DNA from: a virus
Reading direction: 5' to 3' (one strand)
Virus record (IMG/VR): IMGVR_UViG_3300018083_000089
Coordinates: 1 to 32,959 of that record
DNA: 32,959 nt
Every line of letters starts with the position of its first letter. Position 1 is the first letter of the stretch. The position numbers and the translations under genes were made by a program. Below are positions 179-13,627 of the stretch, piece after piece. Below the pieces are notes generated by a model. That model was given only the letters and a program-made list of their open reading frames with translations, was not told the DNA's origin and made no database searches.

Positions 179-206
179 CTTGACAAGCCCGATAAGATGT
201 GTCAAG
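179..206. promoter_or_regulatory. 7-bp inverted repeat upstream of the first complete gene
   Basis: CTTGACA at 179-185 and TGTCAAG at 200-206 are perfect inverted repeats with a 14-base gap, 40 bases before the ATG at 246. The left half includes a consensus -35 hexamer (TTGACA), but no acceptable -10 lies 16-18 bases downstream. I read it as an operator-like dyad or a promoter remnant rather than a proven promoter. Confidence 0.35.
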
Positions 207-245
207 GTGAAGGTCCACCAGTCCCCTATACCAAAGGAAGTAGAA

Positions 246-1031
246 ATGCCTGACGTTAAGGAAATGTACGACACCGCTACTAAGCGGGTTGAGGAACTTG
301 ATGACCTCATTGATTCCGCATCTGATAGTAAGGGTGCGGGACAGCGAGCCGTTAAGAATCGGCTGATTGCTGACAACGAGGGTAATGTTAAGGATCTTGT
401 GGTCCAGATCAGTGAGGGTTTCGCTGATGAGGATCCGCAGGTTAAGTTTGGAGTCTACTTCGGACTTCTCCGAGAGTTGAAGAATGCTTTTGACGAGGCG
501 GCTACTGCTTACGTCGATACTCTCGTTGAGACTCGTCCCGAGGTTCAGAAGGCTTCTGATGCAGAGGTTGCTAAGGCTCAGGAAGAGCGTGGAGTTCTTG
601 CGGGTGTTATTAAGCACCTTGTTGGAATTCTCACGGTTACTAATCCTGAGTTGAAGGATGAGTTGAAGGTTCCCCGCAAGCGTCCGGTTGGTGGTGCTCG
701 TGGTAAGAGGGCAATCTCTTATTACACTTGGACTGTTAATGGTGTTGCTTTCGAGGGTGGAATCACTGAGTTGGCTAAGTCGATTGGTTACACTGATCGT
801 CCCGCTGATCTTCGTGATGAGATGAAGAAGGCAGACATTGACCTCACCAATCCTCCTCAGGTTATTAACTTCACGACTCCTTCTGGTGTTGTGCTTGTTG
901 GTACCAAGGATTCGGATGCCCCTGATTTCTCTAAGGCTGAGAAGCCCGAGAATGATGAGGATGATGACGAGACTCTCGACGCCGAGGATGATGACGCCGA
1001 GGATTTCGAGGACGCAGGACAGTCAATCTAA
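246..1031 (+). CDS. Acidic-tailed hypothetical early protein
   Basis: A 261-residue protein of unrecognised family. The ATG at 246 is preferred over upstream starts because AAGGAAG lies just before it. The first 130 residues look helical and charged. A middle part (about 150-225) has a basic patch, RKRPVGGARGKR, followed by YYTWTVNGVAFEGGITELAKSIG. The last 35 or so residues are almost entirely Asp/Glu. A basic or DNA-contacting body with an acidic tail is the pattern of phage ssDNA-binding proteins and of DNA mimics, but no diagnostic motif was found. Codon use leans strongly to T-ending codons plus GAG and AAG, unlike the following genes, which suggests high expression. It is separated from the replication operon by the hairpin-rich region at 1032-1440. 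Confidence 0.6.
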   Translation: MPDVKEMYDTATKRVEELDDLIDSASDSKGAGQRAVKNRLIADNEGNVKDLVVQISEGFADEDPQVKFGVYFGLLRELKNAFDEAATAYVDTLVETRPEVQKASDAEVAKAQEERGVLAGVIKHLVGILTVTNPELKDELKVPRKRPVGGARGKRAISYYTWTVNGVAFEGGITELAKSIGYTDRPADLRDEMKKADIDLTNPPQVINFTTPSGVVLVGTKDSDAPDFSKAEKPENDEDDDETLDAEDDDAEDFEDAGQSI

Positions 1032-1142
1032 GTAGGTCCGTTGTGGTCAGGCCACTCAGGAAGGATACGTTAAGTCCTTCCCTCCCATAAGGGTCAGTAA
1101 GAGATTACTGATGCCACCTGATTCGTTTCGGGAGTGGGAGCC

Positions 1143-1177
1143 GGGGGAATTAGGTCCTCTACCTACCTAATTCCCCC
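1143..1177 (+). terminator. 13-bp perfect hairpin, terminator-like
   Basis: GGGGGAATTAGGT (1143-1155) pairs perfectly with 1165-1177 across a 9-base loop. A G/C-rich base with an A/T-rich upper stem is terminator-like, but no T-run follows, so intrinsic termination is doubtful. It may act as an RNA-stabilising 3' end for the upstream gene. Confidence 0.35.
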
Positions 1178-1303
1178 TCCTAACACTAAAGAACCAGGAC
1201 AAAAAGCGGGGTTTCCGTAACAACCCTGGGATGCCAAAAGAGGGACTCTAGGAAAGTTTGCTAGAGCCTACACTCTTGAGGAACATCGGCTACTAAGCCG
1301 GGG

Positions 1304-1348
1304 GGAAGTTAAATGGAGGATCCACCCTAACGGGTCCATTTAACTTCC
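1304..1348. repeat. 14-bp perfect inverted repeat
   Basis: GGAAGTTAAATGGA (1304-1317) is exactly complementary to 1335-1348 across a 17-base loop. The loop holds a competing small stem, ACCC/GGGT (1324-1327/1332-1335, the last base shared with the right arm), so two alternative folds are possible, as in attenuators. Confidence 0.5.
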
Positions 1349-1360
1349 TCAAACATTCGT

Positions 1361-1412
1361 GGAGAGGGGGGTAGAGTTTCTTGATCCCCCTTGGGAAACT
1401 CCCCCCTTCTCC
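1361..1412 (+). promoter_or_regulatory. Long G-rich hairpin just upstream of a start codon
   Basis: GGAGA plus six G (1361-1371) pairs with six C plus TCTCC (1401-1412, one bulged T). After a 3-base bulge, AGTTTC (1375-1380) pairs with GAAACT (1395-1400). This gives 17 pairs, and the stem ends 28 bases before the ATG at 1441. The octamer ACATTCGT directly precedes the left arm, as it does at the hairpin at 4901-4973. Probably a leader hairpin affecting expression of the next gene. Confidence 0.45.
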
Positions 1413-1440
1413 CGAAGGTCACAACTAGAAAGGAAAGTTC

Positions 1441-1932
1441 ATGGCAGATGAATGGGGACGTCCAGGATTTCCTCAAGTCTTTGTTCCTAAGTCTTCTCTC
1501 CCCGGAGTAATCCGTGAGATGAAGTTGGGAACTCGTCAAGCAATCTACGCAGTAGCAGTCAAGGCTAAGTTCCGTAGAGGAACTTGGAATGGCTGCGTGA
1601 TGAATCAAGTTGCCGACGGATCAAATAACGTTCAGATGGCGGCGAATTACTTTGGTGAACCGTCCGATCTTATCGCCCGCTTCATTGCTAAGTGGGATGA
1701 AACGTCGGGGCATATCACTTCTGATGTGCAGGCAACTAAAGTCCTGATCCATGCTCTAATGGCTGCGGGACTAGTTGATACTCCGTCAGAGACACCTGTT
1801 CAGCATAAGGTGTGGAGAGTTGCCGTCTATACTTCTGACGAGACTCTCATGGTAGAAGAACTTCGTAACGAGATTGAGGATGGAGCATTCGATTCTCTCT
1901 TGGAGCGGATGGAGGAATTCTCCCTTGTATGA
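1441..1932 (+). CDS. Hypothetical protein, first gene of the replication operon
   Basis: A 163-residue protein I do not recognise. AGAAAGGAAAG sits just before the ATG. The sequence is mixed alpha/beta in character, with a basic stretch KAKFRRGTW near residues 41-49 and an acidic C-terminus rich in Glu. No membrane segment, Cys pair or catalytic motif is evident. Its position immediately downstream of the hairpin-rich region and upstream of a chain of overlapping replication genes suggests an early or replication accessory role, which is inference from context only. Its stop overlaps the likely TTG start of the next small gene. Confidence 0.65.
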   Translation: MADEWGRPGFPQVFVPKSSLPGVIREMKLGTRQAIYAVAVKAKFRRGTWNGCVMNQVADGSNNVQMAANYFGEPSDLIARFIAKWDETSGHITSDVQATKVLIHALMAAGLVDTPSETPVQHKVWRVAVYTSDETLMVEELRNEIEDGAFDSLLERMEEFSLV

Positions 1933-2238: not shown

Positions 2239-2372
2239 AAGTTCGAATCATTAGTGATTGCCAACATGGATGGAAGAAATGGTTTCACTTTCATGCATGG
2301 GAGCCTTGCCGCAATTGGCAGGGTAATACCTGGATTAGATGTTTCCGATGTGGAAAGCAGAAGATACGATGA
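2235..2372 (+). CDS. 45-residue zinc-ribbon-like microprotein
   Basis: The ATG at 2235 overlaps the preceding stop (ATGA) and its own TGA overlaps the start of the nuclease gene (ATGA at 2369). The product contains C9, C25 and CFRC at 36-39, together with several His and Trp residues (HGWKKWFHFHAWEPC). This resembles a degenerate zinc ribbon. It is unusually rich in aromatic residues. No known family was recognised. Coupling on both sides and the conserved Cys/His pattern support it as a true gene. Confidence 0.55.
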   Translation: MKVRIISDCQHGWKKWFHFHAWEPCRNWQGNTWIRCFRCGKQKIR

Positions 2373-3307
2373 GGCGTGACAACACTAAGGAAAGAGTTGG
2401 ACGCTACATCTCTCACTCCCAGGCACAGACCTGGTTGAATTGTGAGCAGAAATGGTGGTACAACTACAAACTAGGTTGGGTCAGTAAGGACACGGTCCCT
2501 CACCTAGTTATGGGGGATTACATTCACGGGAAACTTGACATCTATTACCAGATGCAGAAGTACGAAGACGGGGAGCCTCACTACACTCCCGATGAGTTGT
2601 ACGATATCATGGAGCCGTTGATTCTTGAGGATTTGAAAGAGGACGGCACGAACGGCGAGCACATTTCTCGTGCTCTCAAGACCATGAATCGATACATCCG
2701 AGTCTATGCCCCTGTAGAAGATGAGGGTATGGAAGTAGTCGAGTCGGAGATGTATTTCGAGATTGAGATTCCTACTCCCAAAGATAGGACTGTTACTATC
2801 GAGGGGTATGTTGACTTGTTCTACAAGAATAAGTTTGGACTACTGATTGTTCGGGATCACAAATCTACTGACTCTGGTAGGTTCTGGAACAGTCTGCAAG
2901 TCAACTACGATATGCAGCAGACAGTATACATTGCTGGCTTGCGTTCCCTTGGTTATGACGTGTGGCGGGGTGAAGTAAACTTCCTTAACACTCACGACTA
3001 CAAAGACTTCAATGCAGTCCCTATCGAAAAGATGTTCAAGACTGTGGGAGCCTCTCGCACACAAGATGAGTTGGATGCTAGTCTACTGTGGCTTGGCAAG
3101 ATGGTGGATCGTCAACTTGATTTGACTGATCCTCAGATGAGCCGAGATAAATCCTGTGGCTATTGTCCCTATGCTAATCCCTGTCTCCACAAATTTAAGG
3201 GGAAAGATGATGCGGTTATCCTTCAACTCGGATTCAGAAGAAAGGATGGATACACAGAATATCATGCCGCCGAAGCAAATCAGCAAAGTAGTAGTGACGT
3301 ATCTTGA
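2369..3307 (+). CDS. PD-(D/E)XK nuclease, Cas4/RecB-like, with probable Fe-S cluster
   Basis: A 312-residue nuclease starting at ATG 2369, which overlaps the previous stop; the frame is open further upstream but that start is inside the preceding gene. Seen motifs: C25 in LNCEQKWW, His in GDYIHGKLD (about 53), a catalytic Asp in EGYVDLF, then VRDHKS as the D-x-K motif, and CGYCPYANPC near 263-272. The order Cys, nuclease core, three C-terminal Cys is that of Cas4 and AddB-type enzymes, in which four Cys hold a 4Fe-4S cluster. These enzymes process DNA ends, usually 5'-3' on single strands. Next to a RecA-like ATPase and an OB-fold-like protein, it probably serves phage recombination or replication. 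Family confident, exact activity inferred. Confidence 0.8.
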   Translation: MRRDNTKERVGRYISHSQAQTWLNCEQKWWYNYKLGWVSKDTVPHLVMGDYIHGKLDIYYQMQKYEDGEPHYTPDELYDIMEPLILEDLKEDGTNGEHISRALKTMNRYIRVYAPVEDEGMEVVESEMYFEIEIPTPKDRTVTIEGYVDLFYKNKFGLLIVRDHKSTDSGRFWNSLQVNYDMQQTVYIAGLRSLGYDVWRGEVNFLNTHDYKDFNAVPIEKMFKTVGASRTQDELDASLLWLGKMVDRQLDLTDPQMSRDKSCGYCPYANPCLHKFKGKDDAVILQLGFRRKDGYTEYHAAEANQQSSSDVS

Positions 3308-3449
3308 TGGGTCCGAGGAATCATTTGATGTCCCCGAGACTCAAGGTTTTGTTCGCAAGTCCCTCACCTACGAACCAGTACGTGAGGCCCAAGGAATTCT
3401 CAAGTGGGGAAAGGCTATTAACATGCACGAAATCTGCTGGTACACATGA
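3264..3449 (+). CDS. Small hypothetical protein
   Basis: A 61-residue frame (MPPKQISKVVVTYLDGSEESFDVPE...) overlapping the 3' end of the nuclease gene by 44 bases. ATG 3264 gives a sensible beta-rich N-terminus; ATG 3246 is the alternative and lies closer to AAAGG. Neither has a perfect ribosome site. The segment VVVTYLDGSEESFDVPE resembles the small beta proteins with a 'YxDGxxE' turn often found in phage operons. Function unknown. Its TGA overlaps the next ATG (ATGATG at 3446), which supports translation. Confidence 0.5.
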   Translation: MPPKQISKVVVTYLDGSEESFDVPETQGFVRKSLTYEPVREAQGILKWGKAINMHEICWYT

Positions 3450-3625
3450 TGTTCCCTACTTGGATTCAACTCGGAATTGGAACCCTCAAATATAATACTC
3501 CTACCATACGTATATGGTGTAAGCGATGTGGGTGGTTTAAGGATGAGATAGTAGACGTCAGGATTAATACAGTGACCCTCGTTGTAAATAATCATCTATC
3601 TCTTTCCCCGGAGTGTCAAGCATGA
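3446..3625 (+). CDS. 59-residue protein with one Cys-x2-Cys
   Basis: ATG at 3446 overlaps the preceding stop, and the TGA at 3623-3625 overlaps the next ATG (3622). The product is short and beta-rich with a single CKRC knuckle at residues 25-28 and a lone Cys near the C-terminus. It may hold half of a zinc site. No family recognised. It belongs to the same chain of coupled microproteins as those at 1925-2372, which supports it as a gene despite its size. Confidence 0.5.
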   Translation: MMFPTWIQLGIGTLKYNTPTIRIWCKRCGWFKDEIVDVRINTVTLVVNNHLSLSPECQA

Positions 3626-3765
3626 CTGTCGAAGAACTCATAGAACTACTAAATCAAGATTGGATTGACAAGGGCCTAGATGTTGTTGTTACAGCATCTG
3701 AGCCTGGGGCTACTAACATCTCTGTAGAAATCTATGAGGATGCAGTAGAAATTTGGGGTCGATGA
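3622..3765 (+). CDS. 47-residue acidic microprotein
   Basis: Starts with ATG 3622 inside the previous stop and ends with TGA overlapping the ATG of the ATPase gene (3762). The sequence begins MTVEELIELLNQDWIDKGLDVVV and is strongly acidic overall. It has a short amphipathic helix followed by beta-like repeats of V and I. There is no Cys pair. The function is unknown. The overlaps on both sides and absence of any gap suggest it is translated along with the operon. Confidence 0.5.
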   Translation: MTVEELIELLNQDWIDKGLDVVVTASEPGATNISVEIYEDAVEIWGR

Positions 3766-4475
3766 CAGTCACTCCTAGACCTCCCCGCAAACTCACTGGT
3801 CATTACTTAGGTGCAATCTATGGTGATCCCGGATGTGGCAAGACAACACTTGCCGCCAAGTCTCCTGATCCCATCCATATAGATACTGGTAACGAGTCAT
3901 TAGTTCTCGCCTATACACCTGGGCTTGAGAACACACCAGTATATCCTGTGACTTCCCACCAGGAAATCATGGAGATAGTTATGGACGTGCGGATCGGAAA
4001 GATCAAGTGCAAGACTCTCATCATAGACAACGTCACAGATCAACAGCGTCTGCAACTTGCTCACTCCGCTGAGAAGTTAAAGACTGGCAGACTCTTTGCA
4101 GACGTCATCGTTCCCATTCAGCAGGACTATAACATTGGTACTGTGGCAATCGGAAACATGCTTGATACTCTCAAGTCGGATGCTTTCCCTGCTGACGTGC
4201 TGTTGATTATGCACCGCTCGGATATCTTTGACAAGGCTGGTAACTTTGTCATCACCCGTCATGCAGTGACACCTAAACTCGCTACCAGAATTTCTGGTGC
4301 AGTGGACTTCCTTCTTTACATGAAGAAGGATATCAACTCAATCAAGAAGGAGGTTCTTCGTACCCTTCGTGCCAATCCTAGTAATATGGTAGATGCTAAG
4401 AATCGTATAGCACTACCCGATGAGTTCCCCGCAGAGGACCTTTGGTCCATCATAGAAAGTAGGAGAGAGAAGTGA
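3762..4475 (+). CDS. P-loop ATPase, RecA/AAA_24-like phage nucleotide-binding protein
   Basis: A 237-residue ATPase; ATG 3762 overlaps the preceding stop. GDPGCGKTT (21-29) is the Walker A motif and CKTLIIDNVT (about 82-90) carries the Walker B Asp. The length and the following DUF669-like gene match the phage pair 'AAA-family ATPase plus DUF669 protein', found in replication/recombination modules of many siphophages and podophages, where the ATPase is thought to work as a Sak4-like annealase or recombinase. Here it sits directly downstream of the Cas4-like nuclease, making a nuclease, ATPase and OB-protein recombination set. Its TGA overlaps the GTG of the next gene, implying fixed stoichiometry. 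Confidence 0.8.
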   Translation: MTVTPRPPRKLTGHYLGAIYGDPGCGKTTLAAKSPDPIHIDTGNESLVLAYTPGLENTPVYPVTSHQEIMEIVMDVRIGKIKCKTLIIDNVTDQQRLQLAHSAEKLKTGRLFADVIVPIQQDYNIGTVAIGNMLDTLKSDAFPADVLLIMHRSDIFDKAGNFVITRHAVTPKLATRISGAVDFLLYMKKDINSIKKEVLRTLRANPSNMVDAKNRIALPDEFPAEDLWSIIESRREK

Positions 4476-4900: not shown

Positions 4901-4973
4901 GTAAGGCAGGGGTCTCCACTCGGCTACGGTTGCTACAACTCTGTATCCGTAAGTGGTCGGGCCCCTGCCTTAC
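4901..4973 (+). promoter_or_regulatory. 73-base hairpin before the primase-helicase gene
   Basis: GTAAGGCAGGGG (4901-4912) pairs perfectly with 4962-4973. Inside, CCACT (4916-4920) pairs with AGTGG (4952-4956) and TACGG (4925-4929) with CCGTA (4947-4951), leaving a 17-base apical loop. The element fills most of the 106-base gap and ends 21 bases before the GTG start. ACATTCGT overlaps its 5' end, as it precedes the hairpin at 1361. It is probably an RNA leader element or a processing or attenuation site; an origin is also possible. Confidence 0.5.
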
Positions 4974-4994: not shown

Positions 4995-6674
4995 GTGGAA
5001 TCAATTGATGAGTTTCTATCACTCATCTTCCGACACGCACCAGATGGACGATTCTATTTCTCCAATGAGATCCACAAGACGTTGGGAAAAGCCTTCCCGA
5101 AGTGGCACAGGACGAAAGAAGACTATGCTAAATCGCTTGTTACCGAAACAGGAAAGTCAACCGATCTCTATTTCTCGCCTGCACTCTACCTCCGGCCAAC
5201 ACGACCCATCAAATCCAATGTCGCTGGCTCGTCAGTTGTGTGGGTTGATTGTGACTCTGGACTACCAGAATTTGACAAGTCTCCCAGCCTTCTTATTGAA
5301 ACTAGCCCTGATCACTTTCACGCCTATTGGGCTCTTGAGGGCTTCAAACCTGCTCCGTACATCGAAGCAATCAACAGGCAGTTGGCATATAAGTACCATA
5401 CTGACAAGTCGGGATGGGACTCTACACAGTTGTTACGCCCACCGGGCAGTTACAATCGCAAACGGGAGAATTTCCAGGCAAAGGTCACTGAACATCGTGA
5501 CTCTATCCATGCCTTCGAGGTAACCGCCGAAGATATAACTACTCCTACCCTACAGGGGGACGTGTCAGAAGTTCTGGCCCGCACCGTCTTCACTCAGAAG
5601 ATTAGGAACCTGCTATTCAAAGAGACCACCTCTAAGAACGAGGGCCGTTCCGGCCTGATCTTTCAAACAGCGTGTGAATTAGTCTCAATGAATCTTCCGG
5701 ACTCGGAAATCATTGCACTGCTGATGATGCAGGATGACCGCCTTAAGAAGTTCACAAATCATGCTGACCGCATAGGAACTTTGACGGGGTTGGTTACGAA
5801 CGCTCGCGGCAAGGTGGGTATACACGCCCCTGTAGGGAAGGAAGATTCTCGCCCGCTTTACTCAATTTGGAAGGGCAATAAGGAATTCCTTTCTGCAAAG
5901 GACGGGGAGGGGGAGCAGTTCATCGTTCAACATCTACTGTATAAGCAGGGTATTACCATCATTGGGGGAGAACCCGGTGCTGGTAAGTCTAGGTTTACAA
6001 TTCAGATGTTGGATTCGATCAGTTGTGGCAAACCATTTATTGGAAAAGCAGTTCATGAACCCTTAGTGTGCGCTTACATCTCGCTTGATATGAACAATCG
6101 GAGGGTAAGAGATATTCGTACCAAGCAGCAATTCTTCTATACCGATGTGGAACAGGATCTCATTGAGAAGAACATGAACATGTTTATCCGTGGATATGGT
6201 ATGGACTTAACAAACCCTGAACTTCAAGCAAGGGTCCAAGAGGATCTAATTGCCATTGGTGCACAGGTAGTCTGCTTCGACGTTCTAGCGAGGGCAGTAC
6301 CCTCTATGCTTGATGATCAGATGGCAGTTAAATTTCTCGATTGGGTTCAAGCCATGATTGAATTTAATGGGATATCAGTAGTGTTTGTAACCCACACTAG
6401 AAAGACTGCGGTAGGTATTAAAGCATCTCACGGATTGGATGATATGTATGGGTCACGTCACTGGTCAATTCCTCCCGATGAGGCATTTACCCTGGTCAAC
6501 ACCTCCACTAACGATACTACTATGTATGTAAATAAAGATCGTTCAGGAGAACTCGGAGAGTTCGTCTATCTTTATAAGGATTACAATCATTCTTCATTCA
6601 GTATTAGGAATCTTACCAAGAAGGAAGATGTTAGTGAAGAAGATGCTACGACTGCCGCAGGACAGGGACTCTAA
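4995..6674 (+). CDS. Primase-helicase fusion (PrimPol/RepB-type primase plus RepA-like AAA_25 helicase)
   Basis: A 559-residue protein. GTG 4995 is chosen because GAAGGGAG lies 5 bases upstream; a longer frame from GTG 4953 would start inside the hairpin. N-terminal half: WVDCD (about 84), then SPDHFHAYW and STQLLRPPGSYNRK, which match the catalytic DxD, 'sxxHxYW' and basic motifs of archaeo-eukaryotic-type primases of the RepB/PrimPol group. C-terminal half: GGEPGAGKS (about 325-333) as Walker A, VVCFDVLAR as Walker B and VVFVTHTRK, typical of RepA-like hexameric helicases (AAA_25). It likely unwinds the fork and lays primers for the downstream polymerase. Its last base overlaps the polymerase ATG. 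Confidence 0.82.
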   Translation: MESIDEFLSLIFRHAPDGRFYFSNEIHKTLGKAFPKWHRTKEDYAKSLVTETGKSTDLYFSPALYLRPTRPIKSNVAGSSVVWVDCDSGLPEFDKSPSLLIETSPDHFHAYWALEGFKPAPYIEAINRQLAYKYHTDKSGWDSTQLLRPPGSYNRKRENFQAKVTEHRDSIHAFEVTAEDITTPTLQGDVSEVLARTVFTQKIRNLLFKETTSKNEGRSGLIFQTACELVSMNLPDSEIIALLMMQDDRLKKFTNHADRIGTLTGLVTNARGKVGIHAPVGKEDSRPLYSIWKGNKEFLSAKDGEGEQFIVQHLLYKQGITIIGGEPGAGKSRFTIQMLDSISCGKPFIGKAVHEPLVCAYISLDMNNRRVRDIRTKQQFFYTDVEQDLIEKNMNMFIRGYGMDLTNPELQARVQEDLIAIGAQVVCFDVLARAVPSMLDDQMAVKFLDWVQAMIEFNGISVVFVTHTRKTAVGIKASHGLDDMYGSRHWSIPPDEAFTLVNTSTNDTTMYVNKDRSGELGEFVYLYKDYNHSSFSIRNLTKKEDVSEEDATTAAGQGL

Positions 6675-8344
6675 TGTTAATTACTGATCCCGATATCCTG
6701 AAAGTGTGGCTGCGCCAACAGAAAGTGATAGCCATTGACACGGAAACCAACATCACCGAGAATGATCATGAGCGATTCCTTGTTGGGGTTTCGTTTTACT
6801 CACCGGGAAATGAACCCTTCTATCTCCCTGTGGGACACCGGGAATATATTGTTCCCATTGAGAATGCCACGTTCTGGGACTTCTCGATGGACCTCAGACC
6901 GGATGTTTCGCTCATATTCCATAATGCCAAGTTTGACCTTAAGGTATTACGGGGTGCGGGATGTGACTTGTTGGACTTCGATATTATCGATACGATGCTA
7001 TGGCATCATCTTCTCGATTCTTACCGCCCGCATGATCTAGCATCCTTGGAGAAGAAGTTTCTCGACAAGGATACGAAAGCGGATCTAGTAAAGGCCATCA
7101 AGCAGATCAGAGAAGCCCGAGGGATGGAAGCCGTACCTCCAATTGCGATGGCAGTATACGCAGAGAACGACGTTATCTCAACGTATGAACTCTACGCTCT
7201 ATTCCGACCGCAATTGGAGGCACAAGGCTTAATAGAAATCTGGGAGACGGACCAGAAGTTCATGAAACTTCTAGTTCGGCTCGAAGAGTCCGGGCTAAAG
7301 TTAGATCGCCCACGCGCTCAGCATCTTGCACAGCAATCCAAAGATCGAATGCAAGTAATTCGTCAGCAGTTACCGTTCGATCCTGCGAAATCCTCTCAAG
7401 TAATAACACGGTTCTTTTCTCCAATCCCTGATGGCTTAGGTCTCTCTCCAACTAAACGCACTCCTGGTGGTAAACCCTCCACGGATGACGAGGCCATGAC
7501 AGCCGTGAATCACCCCGAGGCGGGTCTACTCCTTGAGTATAGAGGATTGGCTAAGGCTACGTCAACATGGTTTGAAGGATTCCAGACCAAGTGTGACCAG
7601 GCAGGATACCTCCATCCCACCTTTAAGCAGCACGGTACCCTGACCCACCGGCTCAGCGCTGAGAACCCCAACCCTCAACAGATACCTAGAGAGGGATCTG
7701 TTAAGTCTTTATTCCTACCAGAAGAAGGATGTGAGTTAGTTGAGTTTGACTATAGAGCGATTGAATTTAGACTTGCTGCGTGGTATTCTGGTGATGAGAA
7801 TCTCATCGAGGTCTTTCGCACAGACGGAGACATTCATCAGTACGTTGCCGACAGGTTGGGTATTAAACGGCAGTCGGCAAAGAACACTAACTTCACCATC
7901 ATCTACGCTGGTGGCCCATCTAGAATTGCCACTACCGCAGGTATTCCTCTTAAAGACGCAAGGGCAATCTATGCTTCATATAGAGAAGAATATCCTAAAT
8001 TATTTGCGATTGCTGACAAATGCGAATATCTTGCTGAGAAACGCGGATACATCAAGTATTGGGATGGACGACGAAGAATTTTCAAGCAAACCTTTGAGTG
8101 TCGTAAAGCCTTTAACTCGGTTGTTCAAGGTGGAGCATTCCAAATAATTAAACGGTCAATGCTTCATCTCGAAGAGATGGGTGTGGATATGCGTAACCAA
8201 GTTCATGACTCTATATGGGTGAATGTTCCCATTGGAGAAAGTAAACAGTCAATCATTGACGCAATGGTTGACTGGACAGTAGAGAGATTCGATATGCCAT
8301 TCCATGTTGATTGGAAGGTACTACACAAAGGAGTATTGGTATGA
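6674..8344 (+). CDS. Family A DNA polymerase with 3'-5' exonuclease
   Basis: A 556-residue replicative polymerase. Exonuclease motifs: AIDTET (about 20), FHNAKFDLK (about 80) and YAENDVISTY (about 162). Polymerase motifs: HRLSAENPNPQQIP; motif A VEFDYRAIEFR with D359; motif B KRQSAKNTNFTIIY, in which the Phe that discriminates against dideoxynucleotides is kept; motif C NQVHDSIW with D512. Two departures from the family are visible: motif A has Arg-Ala where Ser-Gln is usual, and motif C has HDS instead of HDE. There is no 5'-3' exonuclease domain. Its TGA overlaps the next ATG. The fused primase-helicase upstream supplies priming and unwinding. Confidence 0.92.
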   Translation: MLITDPDILKVWLRQQKVIAIDTETNITENDHERFLVGVSFYSPGNEPFYLPVGHREYIVPIENATFWDFSMDLRPDVSLIFHNAKFDLKVLRGAGCDLLDFDIIDTMLWHHLLDSYRPHDLASLEKKFLDKDTKADLVKAIKQIREARGMEAVPPIAMAVYAENDVISTYELYALFRPQLEAQGLIEIWETDQKFMKLLVRLEESGLKLDRPRAQHLAQQSKDRMQVIRQQLPFDPAKSSQVITRFFSPIPDGLGLSPTKRTPGGKPSTDDEAMTAVNHPEAGLLLEYRGLAKATSTWFEGFQTKCDQAGYLHPTFKQHGTLTHRLSAENPNPQQIPREGSVKSLFLPEEGCELVEFDYRAIEFRLAAWYSGDENLIEVFRTDGDIHQYVADRLGIKRQSAKNTNFTIIYAGGPSRIATTAGIPLKDARAIYASYREEYPKLFAIADKCEYLAEKRGYIKYWDGRRRIFKQTFECRKAFNSVVQGGAFQIIKRSMLHLEEMGVDMRNQVHDSIWVNVPIGESKQSIIDAMVDWTVERFDMPFHVDWKVLHKGVLV

Positions 8345-8613
8345 TAGTACGACAAGGTATGGTTCAACAGTATGCTAACTTGAGGGATCAGACACTCCCC
8401 GATAAGATTGGTACTGCCCATAGATGGGTCGTCATTGCTACCCACAACATCAGTGAGTCAGCATTAATGTCCAACATTAAGGATGGCGAAGAGATTCATT
8501 TGGATCTTGAGAATCTTTTCGATATCAACGTTGGATGCATTGACTGTGAGGAAGTCTTTCAGGTTACCCTACTTGGGGGTAAGTGTTCCGCCCCAGCATG
8601 GGAAATGGAATGA
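8341..8613 (+). CDS. Hypothetical protein with C-terminal Cys-x2-Cys
   Basis: A 90-residue protein; ATG 8341 overlaps the polymerase stop (ATGA) and its TGA overlaps the resolvase ATG (8610). The first half (VVIATHNISESALMSNIKDGEEIHL) is alpha/beta. The C-terminal part holds GCIDCEEVFQVTLLGGKC, with CxxC and a lone Cys, so a zinc knuckle is possible. It belongs to the group of small Cys-pair proteins in this operon. No enzyme motif is visible and no family was recognised. Confidence 0.6.
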   Translation: MIVRQGMVQQYANLRDQTLPDKIGTAHRWVVIATHNISESALMSNIKDGEEIHLDLENLFDINVGCIDCEEVFQVTLLGGKCSAPAWEME

Positions 8614-12300: not shown

Positions 12301-13627
12301 ATTGCGCAAGGAGAGCCTTAGCACCGTCGAGTTCGTCATTAATGGCTGCTCCGAGAGCATTTGTAACTCCGCCAGTTCTCTTAATTTTTGCTTCAAGACT
12401 GGCAACTCGTCGGGCCTGCTTTAAAGTCTCAGCCTTAAGGGCCTTGTAACCACCCTCAGTAGCAGATCGAATATCGGCAGCATTTCTACTAGCCTGAGCT
12501 GTCCTCTCTGCAATTTGTGCGTCAAGTGCCGCAGCGTGTTGTCCTTGGTTCTCAATAGAACCAGCGAGTTGTTCCATCCAAGGGGTTTGAGTTGCCTCAG
12601 AAGCAAGAACAAGTTCCTTAGAAGCCGATCTGGCCGCGGCGGTTTCCCGAGCCACGTTTGAAACGTCCTGAATAACATTCTCGGCGGTCCGAGCTTCTCT
12701 AACCGTCTTAGCAACTCCACGAGCAACCCCAACACCAACAACATTCAAGGGATCCGTAACAACATCCGTAGCTAAACCAGCAGCCACTCCATAAATCTTT
12801 GCGGCAGTGGTCGGAGGCTTGTAATCAGTGGCCTCAGCGATCTGACGCTGCATTAAATCAGCGAAGGAGAACTTCTTCTTCCCGGACAGAGCATCCGATG
12901 CGGCCCCTAATGGCCCACGCTTCTTGAGTTCTTGAGCGTGAGCATAGAGAGCATCAGCATTAGCCTTCTGCTCCGGGGTAAAGTTCTTGTAATCAGGATC
13001 CCGCTTAGGGTCACGAGTAGCAGACGGCCCCGTTAAGGGGTCAGCACTAATAGGCGCCCCCTTTTCGATAGCGGACTGAACGAAACCAGAAAAAGCGCTA
13101 GCGGGACGACTGAGAACGTCAATAGCCTTTCCAGCAACATCACCTACAACAGAATGCTGTACGGAGCGTGCAGTATCACCAATAACATTATCTGCGATGT
13201 TCCTCTGTAGCCAGTTACGGTGCTTACCCTTCTGATTAACAGAGTCAGCCTGAACAACAGCACCAGAATTCATATCCGACTTGAGTTGTTCAACGATCTT
13301 ATTAGTTAGATCGCGAGTTTGGGCAGCCTTCTCCGTCTTGGCCTTCTCGGAGTCCACCTTAGTCTCGTCAATAAGCATTGACGTGGTCTTCTTCTTTTTC
13401 TTTGCAGTGGTTTCCTTCTTGTTCCCACTGGTATCACCGTAACGAGACGCCATATCCGCTCTGGAACGGTTTACATATGTTTCCTTGCTCTCACGAACAA
13501 GATGAACTCCACCTTGATCGTTGGCAGGAACTCCACGCCAATAGGCGAGTTTAACCTTATCCCCAGGAGAACCAGTGGGATAGAAACGAGAAGAAGTATA
13601 CTCTTTAGGCTTCTTAGGGGCAGCCAA
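9350..13627 (-). CDS. Giant polyvalent-type internal virion (ejection) protein
   Basis: A 1425-residue protein, the largest and last of the late operon. The start is TTG 13627, six bases after GGAGG, with the shine site overlapping the previous stop. Residues 1-90 are basic (TTAKKKKKTTS). About 220-700 is Ala/Lys/Glu-rich helix and coiled coil. About 1005-1200 holds FKTSATVGAPSNWVNN, then YSGITPFERQVRKWAIPFYTFMRKATPLMFEG, a pattern I associate with large polyvalent-protein domains such as LPD38. No clear lysozyme or transglycosylase motif was seen. Large proteins at this place in podoviruses are packed in the capsid and ejected with the DNA to span the envelope. Role inferred from size, position and composition. 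Confidence 0.65.
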   Translation of the reverse strand: MAAPKKPKEYTSSRFYPTGSPGDKVKLAYWRGVPANDQGGVHLVRESKETYVNRSRADMASRYGDTSGNKKETTAKKKKKTTSMLIDETKVDSEKAKTEKAAQTRDLTNKIVEQLKSDMNSGAVVQADSVNQKGKHRNWLQRNIADNVIGDTARSVQHSVVGDVAGKAIDVLSRPASAFSGFVQSAIEKGAPISADPLTGPSATRDPKRDPDYKNFTPEQKANADALYAHAQELKKRGPLGAASDALSGKKKFSFADLMQRQIAEATDYKPPTTAAKIYGVAAGLATDVVTDPLNVVGVGVARGVAKTVREARTAENVIQDVSNVARETAAARSASKELVLASEATQTPWMEQLAGSIENQGQHAAALDAQIAERTAQASRNAADIRSATEGGYKALKAETLKQARRVASLEAKIKRTGGVTNALGAAINDELDGAKALLAQLNARYDRITKIREVATSAPVGEDVVKLAKQVEDLKTIAKVSPNNTVVAARLKKASEALKVQTALARNAKIANIPNHADEILKMVEDLNAGKEVNLTRAAKEAVVNNPSVQDHLLALMKENESQFTKNPNKVQPSNLLLREIDKAAENASIPTHSPETISQAAQIVSDSNASRSAHDMAKSILDNVELRGRAVTSGEQNALVAQELFKKMGETGVQDAALARTSEKVANIRAAKGPLSVSSELKASLFDESLAEEILPTKETMDKILANGLQKRFMIHVGGSDLGNFKPIGQVLRAAYMPFELTGRHIGATGAGQSLAKAFKMGAHFPGFTEDLRSMAESHGIVEHADWTLKVRKALTNEFSKDEMRQVTKAIEGGYKLEGRLGEAQAFAQEKIHEIFVKQSDIGKYPPGAEADNYVYHYYRKGARDKIKAFKDDRTALLREGKKGPTIEAAKAAGLKPMDSIDDMLVMQHRDFIRDLQRSNFRQGVVDNYGVLTDNAAFAKQLGLTEVKGGSLNKPFIDLAQAKGPNARWYLPPDVHKTFDAMDRMMEIGVNREANQIMDFYAKATRYFKTSATVGAPSNWVNNTLGDFFLNYMDGVRNPLWYKRAVGLLRTEGTEFPRTVSIAGRDLSGIDVVDIFKRQAPSGGFIRTEGSALGRSRLVRGVQNAYEAREESVRLAHFLHALDEETRVALRKGLGYEKALDVAGERAARRVAHWNIDYSGITPFERQVRKWAIPFYTFMRKATPLMFEGMVTRPGKLVHYDMAKRATEQMLGLPKQEDDGIAWPFWALQAGMTRLTKGDEPMFMKDPSPLSVVNRVLGGDQYTDPLANVVNQANPLAKMPIEIAQQRTLFNQQPITNWGEYLLGQIPTAQIASRASGTQLNPGSSQTPDRSGAEQVANLFGIPIQRMTFNRQRGQIIRDTKDKGYTRDVNAELKGYEIKKAHSTTKGDYYNIKDLKTGEIIAKFRDYNMAARRATALDRGTP

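Follow-up and report, generated by a model that had tools for sequence, protein, structure and literature searches.

The 409 nucleotides that separate the g1 stop codon from the g2 start codon (positions 1032-1440), in the left arm of a viral DNA record, are predicted to fold as RNA into nine terminal hairpins. The array looks like a real RNA element rather than the product of chance or a replication origin. We tentatively interpret it as an intercistronic RNA of the early operon, which would punctuate the transcript by allowing its processing or protection; we infer both read-through transcription and this function.

Position and fold of the array

We analysed a whole virus record of the IMG/VR kind (the window, 32,959 bases), which is perhaps a fragment of a larger genome. 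The genes of its left arm run rightward and include an exonuclease (2339-3307), a Sak4-like ATPase (3753-4475), a primase/helicase starting at about 4953 or 4995, and a family A DNA polymerase (6674-8344). The genes of the right arm, including the terminase, run leftward, and by its layout this arm holds the structural genes. The closest annotated genome is that of Podoviridae sp. ctEqG8 (MW202795; polymerase 40%, terminase 39%, helicase 26%), followed by Arthrobacter Jasminevirus phages, Microbacterium phage Shocker and Cellulosimicrobium phage DS1. These similarities, together with the presence of WhiB genes in ctEqG8 and Jasmine, suggest an actinophage-like virus, whose host group is probably the actinobacteria.

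The gene order is g1, hairpins, g2, exonuclease, Sak4, helicase, polymerase (Table 1). Homologues of g1 were found in L002, L093, L096, L098, L103, L104, L105, L147, L153 and L155, and in L096, L098, L153 and L155 a TTGACA element likewise sits immediately upstream of g1. Homologues of g2 were found in L093-L096, L098, L146-L149 and L153-L156. Neither protein has a Pfam, PHROG or fold match; g2, with its TWNGCxxN motif, represents a protein family conserved in the clade.

Table 1. Features of the window discussed in the text, with positions, strand and description or basis.
Feature	Position	Strand	Description or basis
Candidate promoter upstream of g1	180..208	+	TTGACA at 180, weak -10; predicted from sequence
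g1	246..1031	+	Conserved, mostly helical protein, acidic tail
Whole hairpin array, intercistronic structured RNA	1032..1440	+	Fold and shuffle tests
Hairpin, 8 pairs	1059..1081	+	Mean pair probability 0.99
Three-way junction	1082..1140	+	7-pair closing stem, 10-pair arm, 5-pair arm with UUCGUU loop
Perfect 13-bp hairpin, 9-nt loop	1143..1177	+	Arms 1143-1155/1165-1177
Hairpin, 5 + 4 pairs	1194..1229	+	Predicted fold
Hairpin, 5 + 10 pairs	1238..1277	+	Predicted fold
Small hairpin, 4 pairs	1288..1299	+	Predicted fold
Perfect 14-bp hairpin (16 pairs with a G-U)	1302..1350	+	Arms 1304-1317/1335-1348
Compound hairpin, 15 + 11 pairs (MFE fold), G/C-slippable register	1356..1416	+	Predicted fold
g2 ribosome-binding site GAAAGGA	1428..1434	+	Sequence; mostly unpaired when folded in context
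g2	1441..1932	+	Conserved protein, TWNGCxxN motif
Second intercistronic long hairpin, g5-helicase gap	4901..4973	+	15-pair stem

An earlier note on this DNA had described at least eight consecutive inverted repeats here, with perfect 13- and 14-bp stems, and the predicted fold contains all of these. Most helices have a mean pair probability of at least 0.85; in the three-way junction the values are 0.76 for the closing stem, 0.87 for the 10-pair arm and 0.99 for the 5-pair arm. A tRNA-like identity of this junction received no support from ARAGORN or Rfam. The 17-pair stem that the note placed next to a start codon corresponds to the compound stem, which has a different composition and ends 24 nt upstream of the start codon of g2. 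The region has a GC content of 51% and contains no + strand ORF above 39 aa. It is indeed the only gap of its length in the left arm without an ORF, the other gaps (1933-2338, 3308-3752 and 8345-8582) having small ORFs inside.

The stability of the array exceeds that of shuffled sequence. The fold energy of the + strand is -177.3 kcal/mol, against a shuffle mean of -137.2, and z lies between about -6.5 and -7.7, with none of 100 shuffles as stable in the run that gave -6.48. The excess is weaker on the - strand (z about -3.7 to -4.2; -3.69 against the -6.48 of the + strand). None of the 120 other tiles of 409 nt that were taken from the record, on both strands, falls below the array in energy or in z. 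With loops of 35 or less allowed, 6 perfect stems of at least 7 bp were counted where 1.14 were expected, a number matched in none of 300 shuffles; for stems of at least 9 bp the count was 2 against 0.08 expected, and two together occurred in none of the 300. In 120-nt windows the array stands out less (best z -4.2, rank 12 of 1096 in the record), and it is its length that sets the region apart.

The same slot in related genomes

Relatives with a shared gene order were gathered through alignments of the polymerase, the helicase and g2. Single-protein scans with g1, g2 and the polymerase, a two-sequence g1 alignment and a g1 motif pattern yielded no loci, and two scans of genome contigs gave no matches. 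In L093, L096 and L098 no large conserved gene separates g1 from g2; elsewhere further small genes intervene. Searches for sequence homologues of the array gave nothing in phages or, by blastn and nhmmer, among all loci, and a covariance model of 1059-1177 retrieved no homologue, its best match, in relative L155, being at chance level (E 0.26). A likeness of 1143-1177 to L147 2537-2580, seen by eye, was not recovered by blastn/nhmmer or covariance-model searches.

Long stems recur in position. We looked for the longest stem with at most two G-U pairs and a loop of at most 70. Such a stem of at least 13 bp lies within 360 nt after g1 in 12 of 14 genomes, and in 12 of 15 within a stretch of equal length around the beginning of the helicase match; both counts include the window and both overstate the number of events, since the relatives are not independent samples. 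Among control windows from the same loci, 2.7% (n=300) have one. At both slots the stem sequences differ between genomes. In the window the 15-pair stem 4901-4973 fills the second slot, and the sequence makes a GTG at about 4995, preceded by AAAGGAG, the likelier start of the helicase. Downstream of g1, the first 300 nt fall below z -2.4 in 11 of 14 genomes, where controls average -1.1; L156 shows no excess fold there, and L147 and L103 show little.

The slot of L093, L096 and L098 begins with two long hairpins, followed by a TTGACA promoter before g2, and a terminator-like hairpin and a promoter are found there together. In the second hairpin of these three genomes 9 of 17 pairs are compensatory and 98% of cells are paired, a level reached in none of 500 shuffles, and the covariation is destroyed when the partner is slid by one to three columns. 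Coming from three sequences, this is good but small evidence. Between L153 and L155, the first hairpin has kept its loop and changed its stem. Strand asymmetry, structure conserved in position and the covariation in the relatives' hairpin together support the suggestion, made in the earlier note, of a structured phage RNA.

Other elements were observed in these slots. In L153 the first hairpin is followed by a four-way structure resembling a cloverleaf (2919-3010 and 3008-3070). L153 and L155 (2645-2770) share CCGCCUCUU...GGGAAACGG with differing stems in between, which is perhaps a second conserved RNA element. The loops of the first hairpin after g1 in L096 (6395-6433), L098 (about 6260-6294) and L093 (2644-2684), namely CACCUUUCU, UUCCCUUUCU and ACCCUUUCC, are similar to an anti-Shine-Dalgarno sequence; pairing with ribosome-binding sites of the GAAAGG type is conceivable.

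Possible roles of the array

Structure that is held at fixed intercistronic places while its sequence is free fits punctuation of a transcript, and the array consists of long hairpins between co-directional genes, as expected of processing or protection elements. In the mechanism that we propose, transcription would most likely enter upstream of g1 and read through the array. Within the message, the long hairpins would act as punctuation marks on the way from g1 to the recombination/replication genes: a double-strand-specific nuclease could cut at their double-stranded sites endonucleolytically, and 3'-to-5' decay would be blocked; the g1 message would thereby be separated from the downstream message and could outlive it. 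Partial termination at the hairpins may perhaps occur as well. In this phage the first slot would have grown into the nine-hairpin array, relatives keeping hairpins without the sequence. Read-through is favoured over a terminator-promoter pair because no sigma-70-like promoter was found between g1 and g2 in the window and no U-tract follows the main hairpins. Across relatives the class of hairpin may be mixed, some being terminator-like. Nine hairpins exceed what protection or processing needs, which counts against punctuation.

The array could instead hold one or more dedicated non-coding RNAs cut from the early transcript, with the slot after g1 serving as a stable-RNA locus, an account that we consider possible but doubtful. 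In ctEqG8 (L002) the slot contains tRNA-Leu and tRNA-Arg (at 13071 and 13526) and has z -9.2 over 826 nt, tRNAs included; L103, L104 and L105 have tRNAs between g1 and the exonuclease, and DS1 (L085) has tRNAs upstream of the exonuclease. A closing stem of 12-14 bp surrounds a multi-branched domain in L098 (6517-6690), L093 (3137-3290), L147 (3152-3307) and L002 (13283-13403). With tRNAs and complex domains occupying this slot in relatives, a released stable RNA is among the possibilities for the array, and folded in isolation a helix can close the array as a whole. That helix, however, nearly disappears once the flanks are included, and the array and its relatives have no sequence or covariance-model match. 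Rfam gave no match at the gathering score in the window, relaxed E-value matches lying far below the families' cut-offs, and neither ARAGORN nor RF00005 detected a tRNA there. In the relatives tested no Rfam match other than tRNA was found, and the L147 and L098 domains and the L153 slot gave none. Without the closing stem, the inner domain of L147 is no more stable than shuffled sequence and that of L098 is only weakly more stable; the closing stem therefore carries much of the signal. We consider it rather unlikely that, in this uncultured actinophage clade, undescribed structured RNAs evolve fast in the slot after g1 (hairpin arrays, multi-branched domains with long closing stems, tRNAs), are released from the early transcript and act in trans, for example against RNA-targeting defences of the host or on ribosomes.

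The closed domain is recurrent, as a multi-branched structure of about 100-150 nt inside a stem, between genes. In the L093 domain two complementary loops (AUGCAC / GUGCAU) form a possible kissing pair. ARAGORN also reports a tRNA with anticodon CUA (labelled Pyl) at L147 4901-4985 and L149 443-527, possibly an amber-reading or a misread tRNA on an actinophage-like contig. In Arthrobacter phage Jasmine (L083), about 700 nt after an Lsr2-like gene are gene-free (959-1652) and contain GGATAG repeats, long inverted repeats and TTGACA-type promoters.

Alternatively, the array could regulate g2 and the operon that follows it as a leader, with alternative folds that switch access to the g2 start; we regard this as improbable. 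The idea of a leader controlling the replication operon, put forward in the earlier note, holds in so far as the array follows g1 and precedes the recombination/replication genes, but it is intercistronic, with a candidate promoter upstream of g1, and a regulatory switch could not be shown. The compound stem has a slippable register and ends close to the g2 start codon, an alternative pairing joins 1276-1283 to 1345-1352, and in the isolated fold the g2 ribosome-binding site is paired with 1037-1047. With the flanks included, this sequestration of the Shine-Dalgarno sequence is lost: the site is 69-85% unpaired in context and the long-range pairing falls to 0-8%. No Rfam riboswitch was found.

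Still less probable, in our view, is that the g1 transcript ends at a series of intrinsic terminators lacking U-tracts. The array does have long G/C-rich hairpins after a stop codon, and terminator-like hairpins with T-rich tails occur at the same place in L155 and L096, but the main hairpins of the window lack a U-tract on both strands and no promoter for g2 was found after them. Two weak terminator consensus matches lie inside the array (1318-1337 on the + strand, 1226-1209 on the - strand); the total to which they belong, 8, agrees with what shuffling gives (6.7).

A replication origin or another DNA-level signal (a cruciform or single-strand fold), which the earlier note had also considered, is highly improbable: the fold excess is also seen with DNA parameters and replication genes are close by, but the array has no iterons, tandem repeats, nearby DnaA-like boxes or AT-rich stretch, the GC skew does not turn there, and the RNA fold is strand-asymmetric.

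Comparison with known systems

If transcript data confirm the positional conservation, this actinophage group marks its early operon by RNA structure rather than by sequence, in a way that escapes ordinary gene annotation. The Rfam-negative structured RNAs near tRNA genes named above could be a new class of phage RNA. GOLLD and ROOL are large structured phage RNAs that often lie near tRNA genes or islands (PMC12286853). The relatives of this phage likewise have tRNAs in the slot, whereas the array is shorter and matches no Rfam model, and the window has no tRNA. Phage tRNA clusters occupy the same slot in ctEqG8 and others, in contrast to the window, where ARAGORN and Rfam detect none. The terminator and promoter boundary of L093, L096 and L098 differs in that the hairpins of the window have neither a U-tract nor a detectable promoter after them; it shares with the array the slot and the long hairpins directly after g1.

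In phage T7, the early mRNA contains intercistronic hairpins that are processed by RNase III. T7 has single hairpin sites and another host group, whereas here nine hairpins are packed into 409 nt and processing is what we infer; the likeness lies in long hairpins placed between the genes of a single early transcript.
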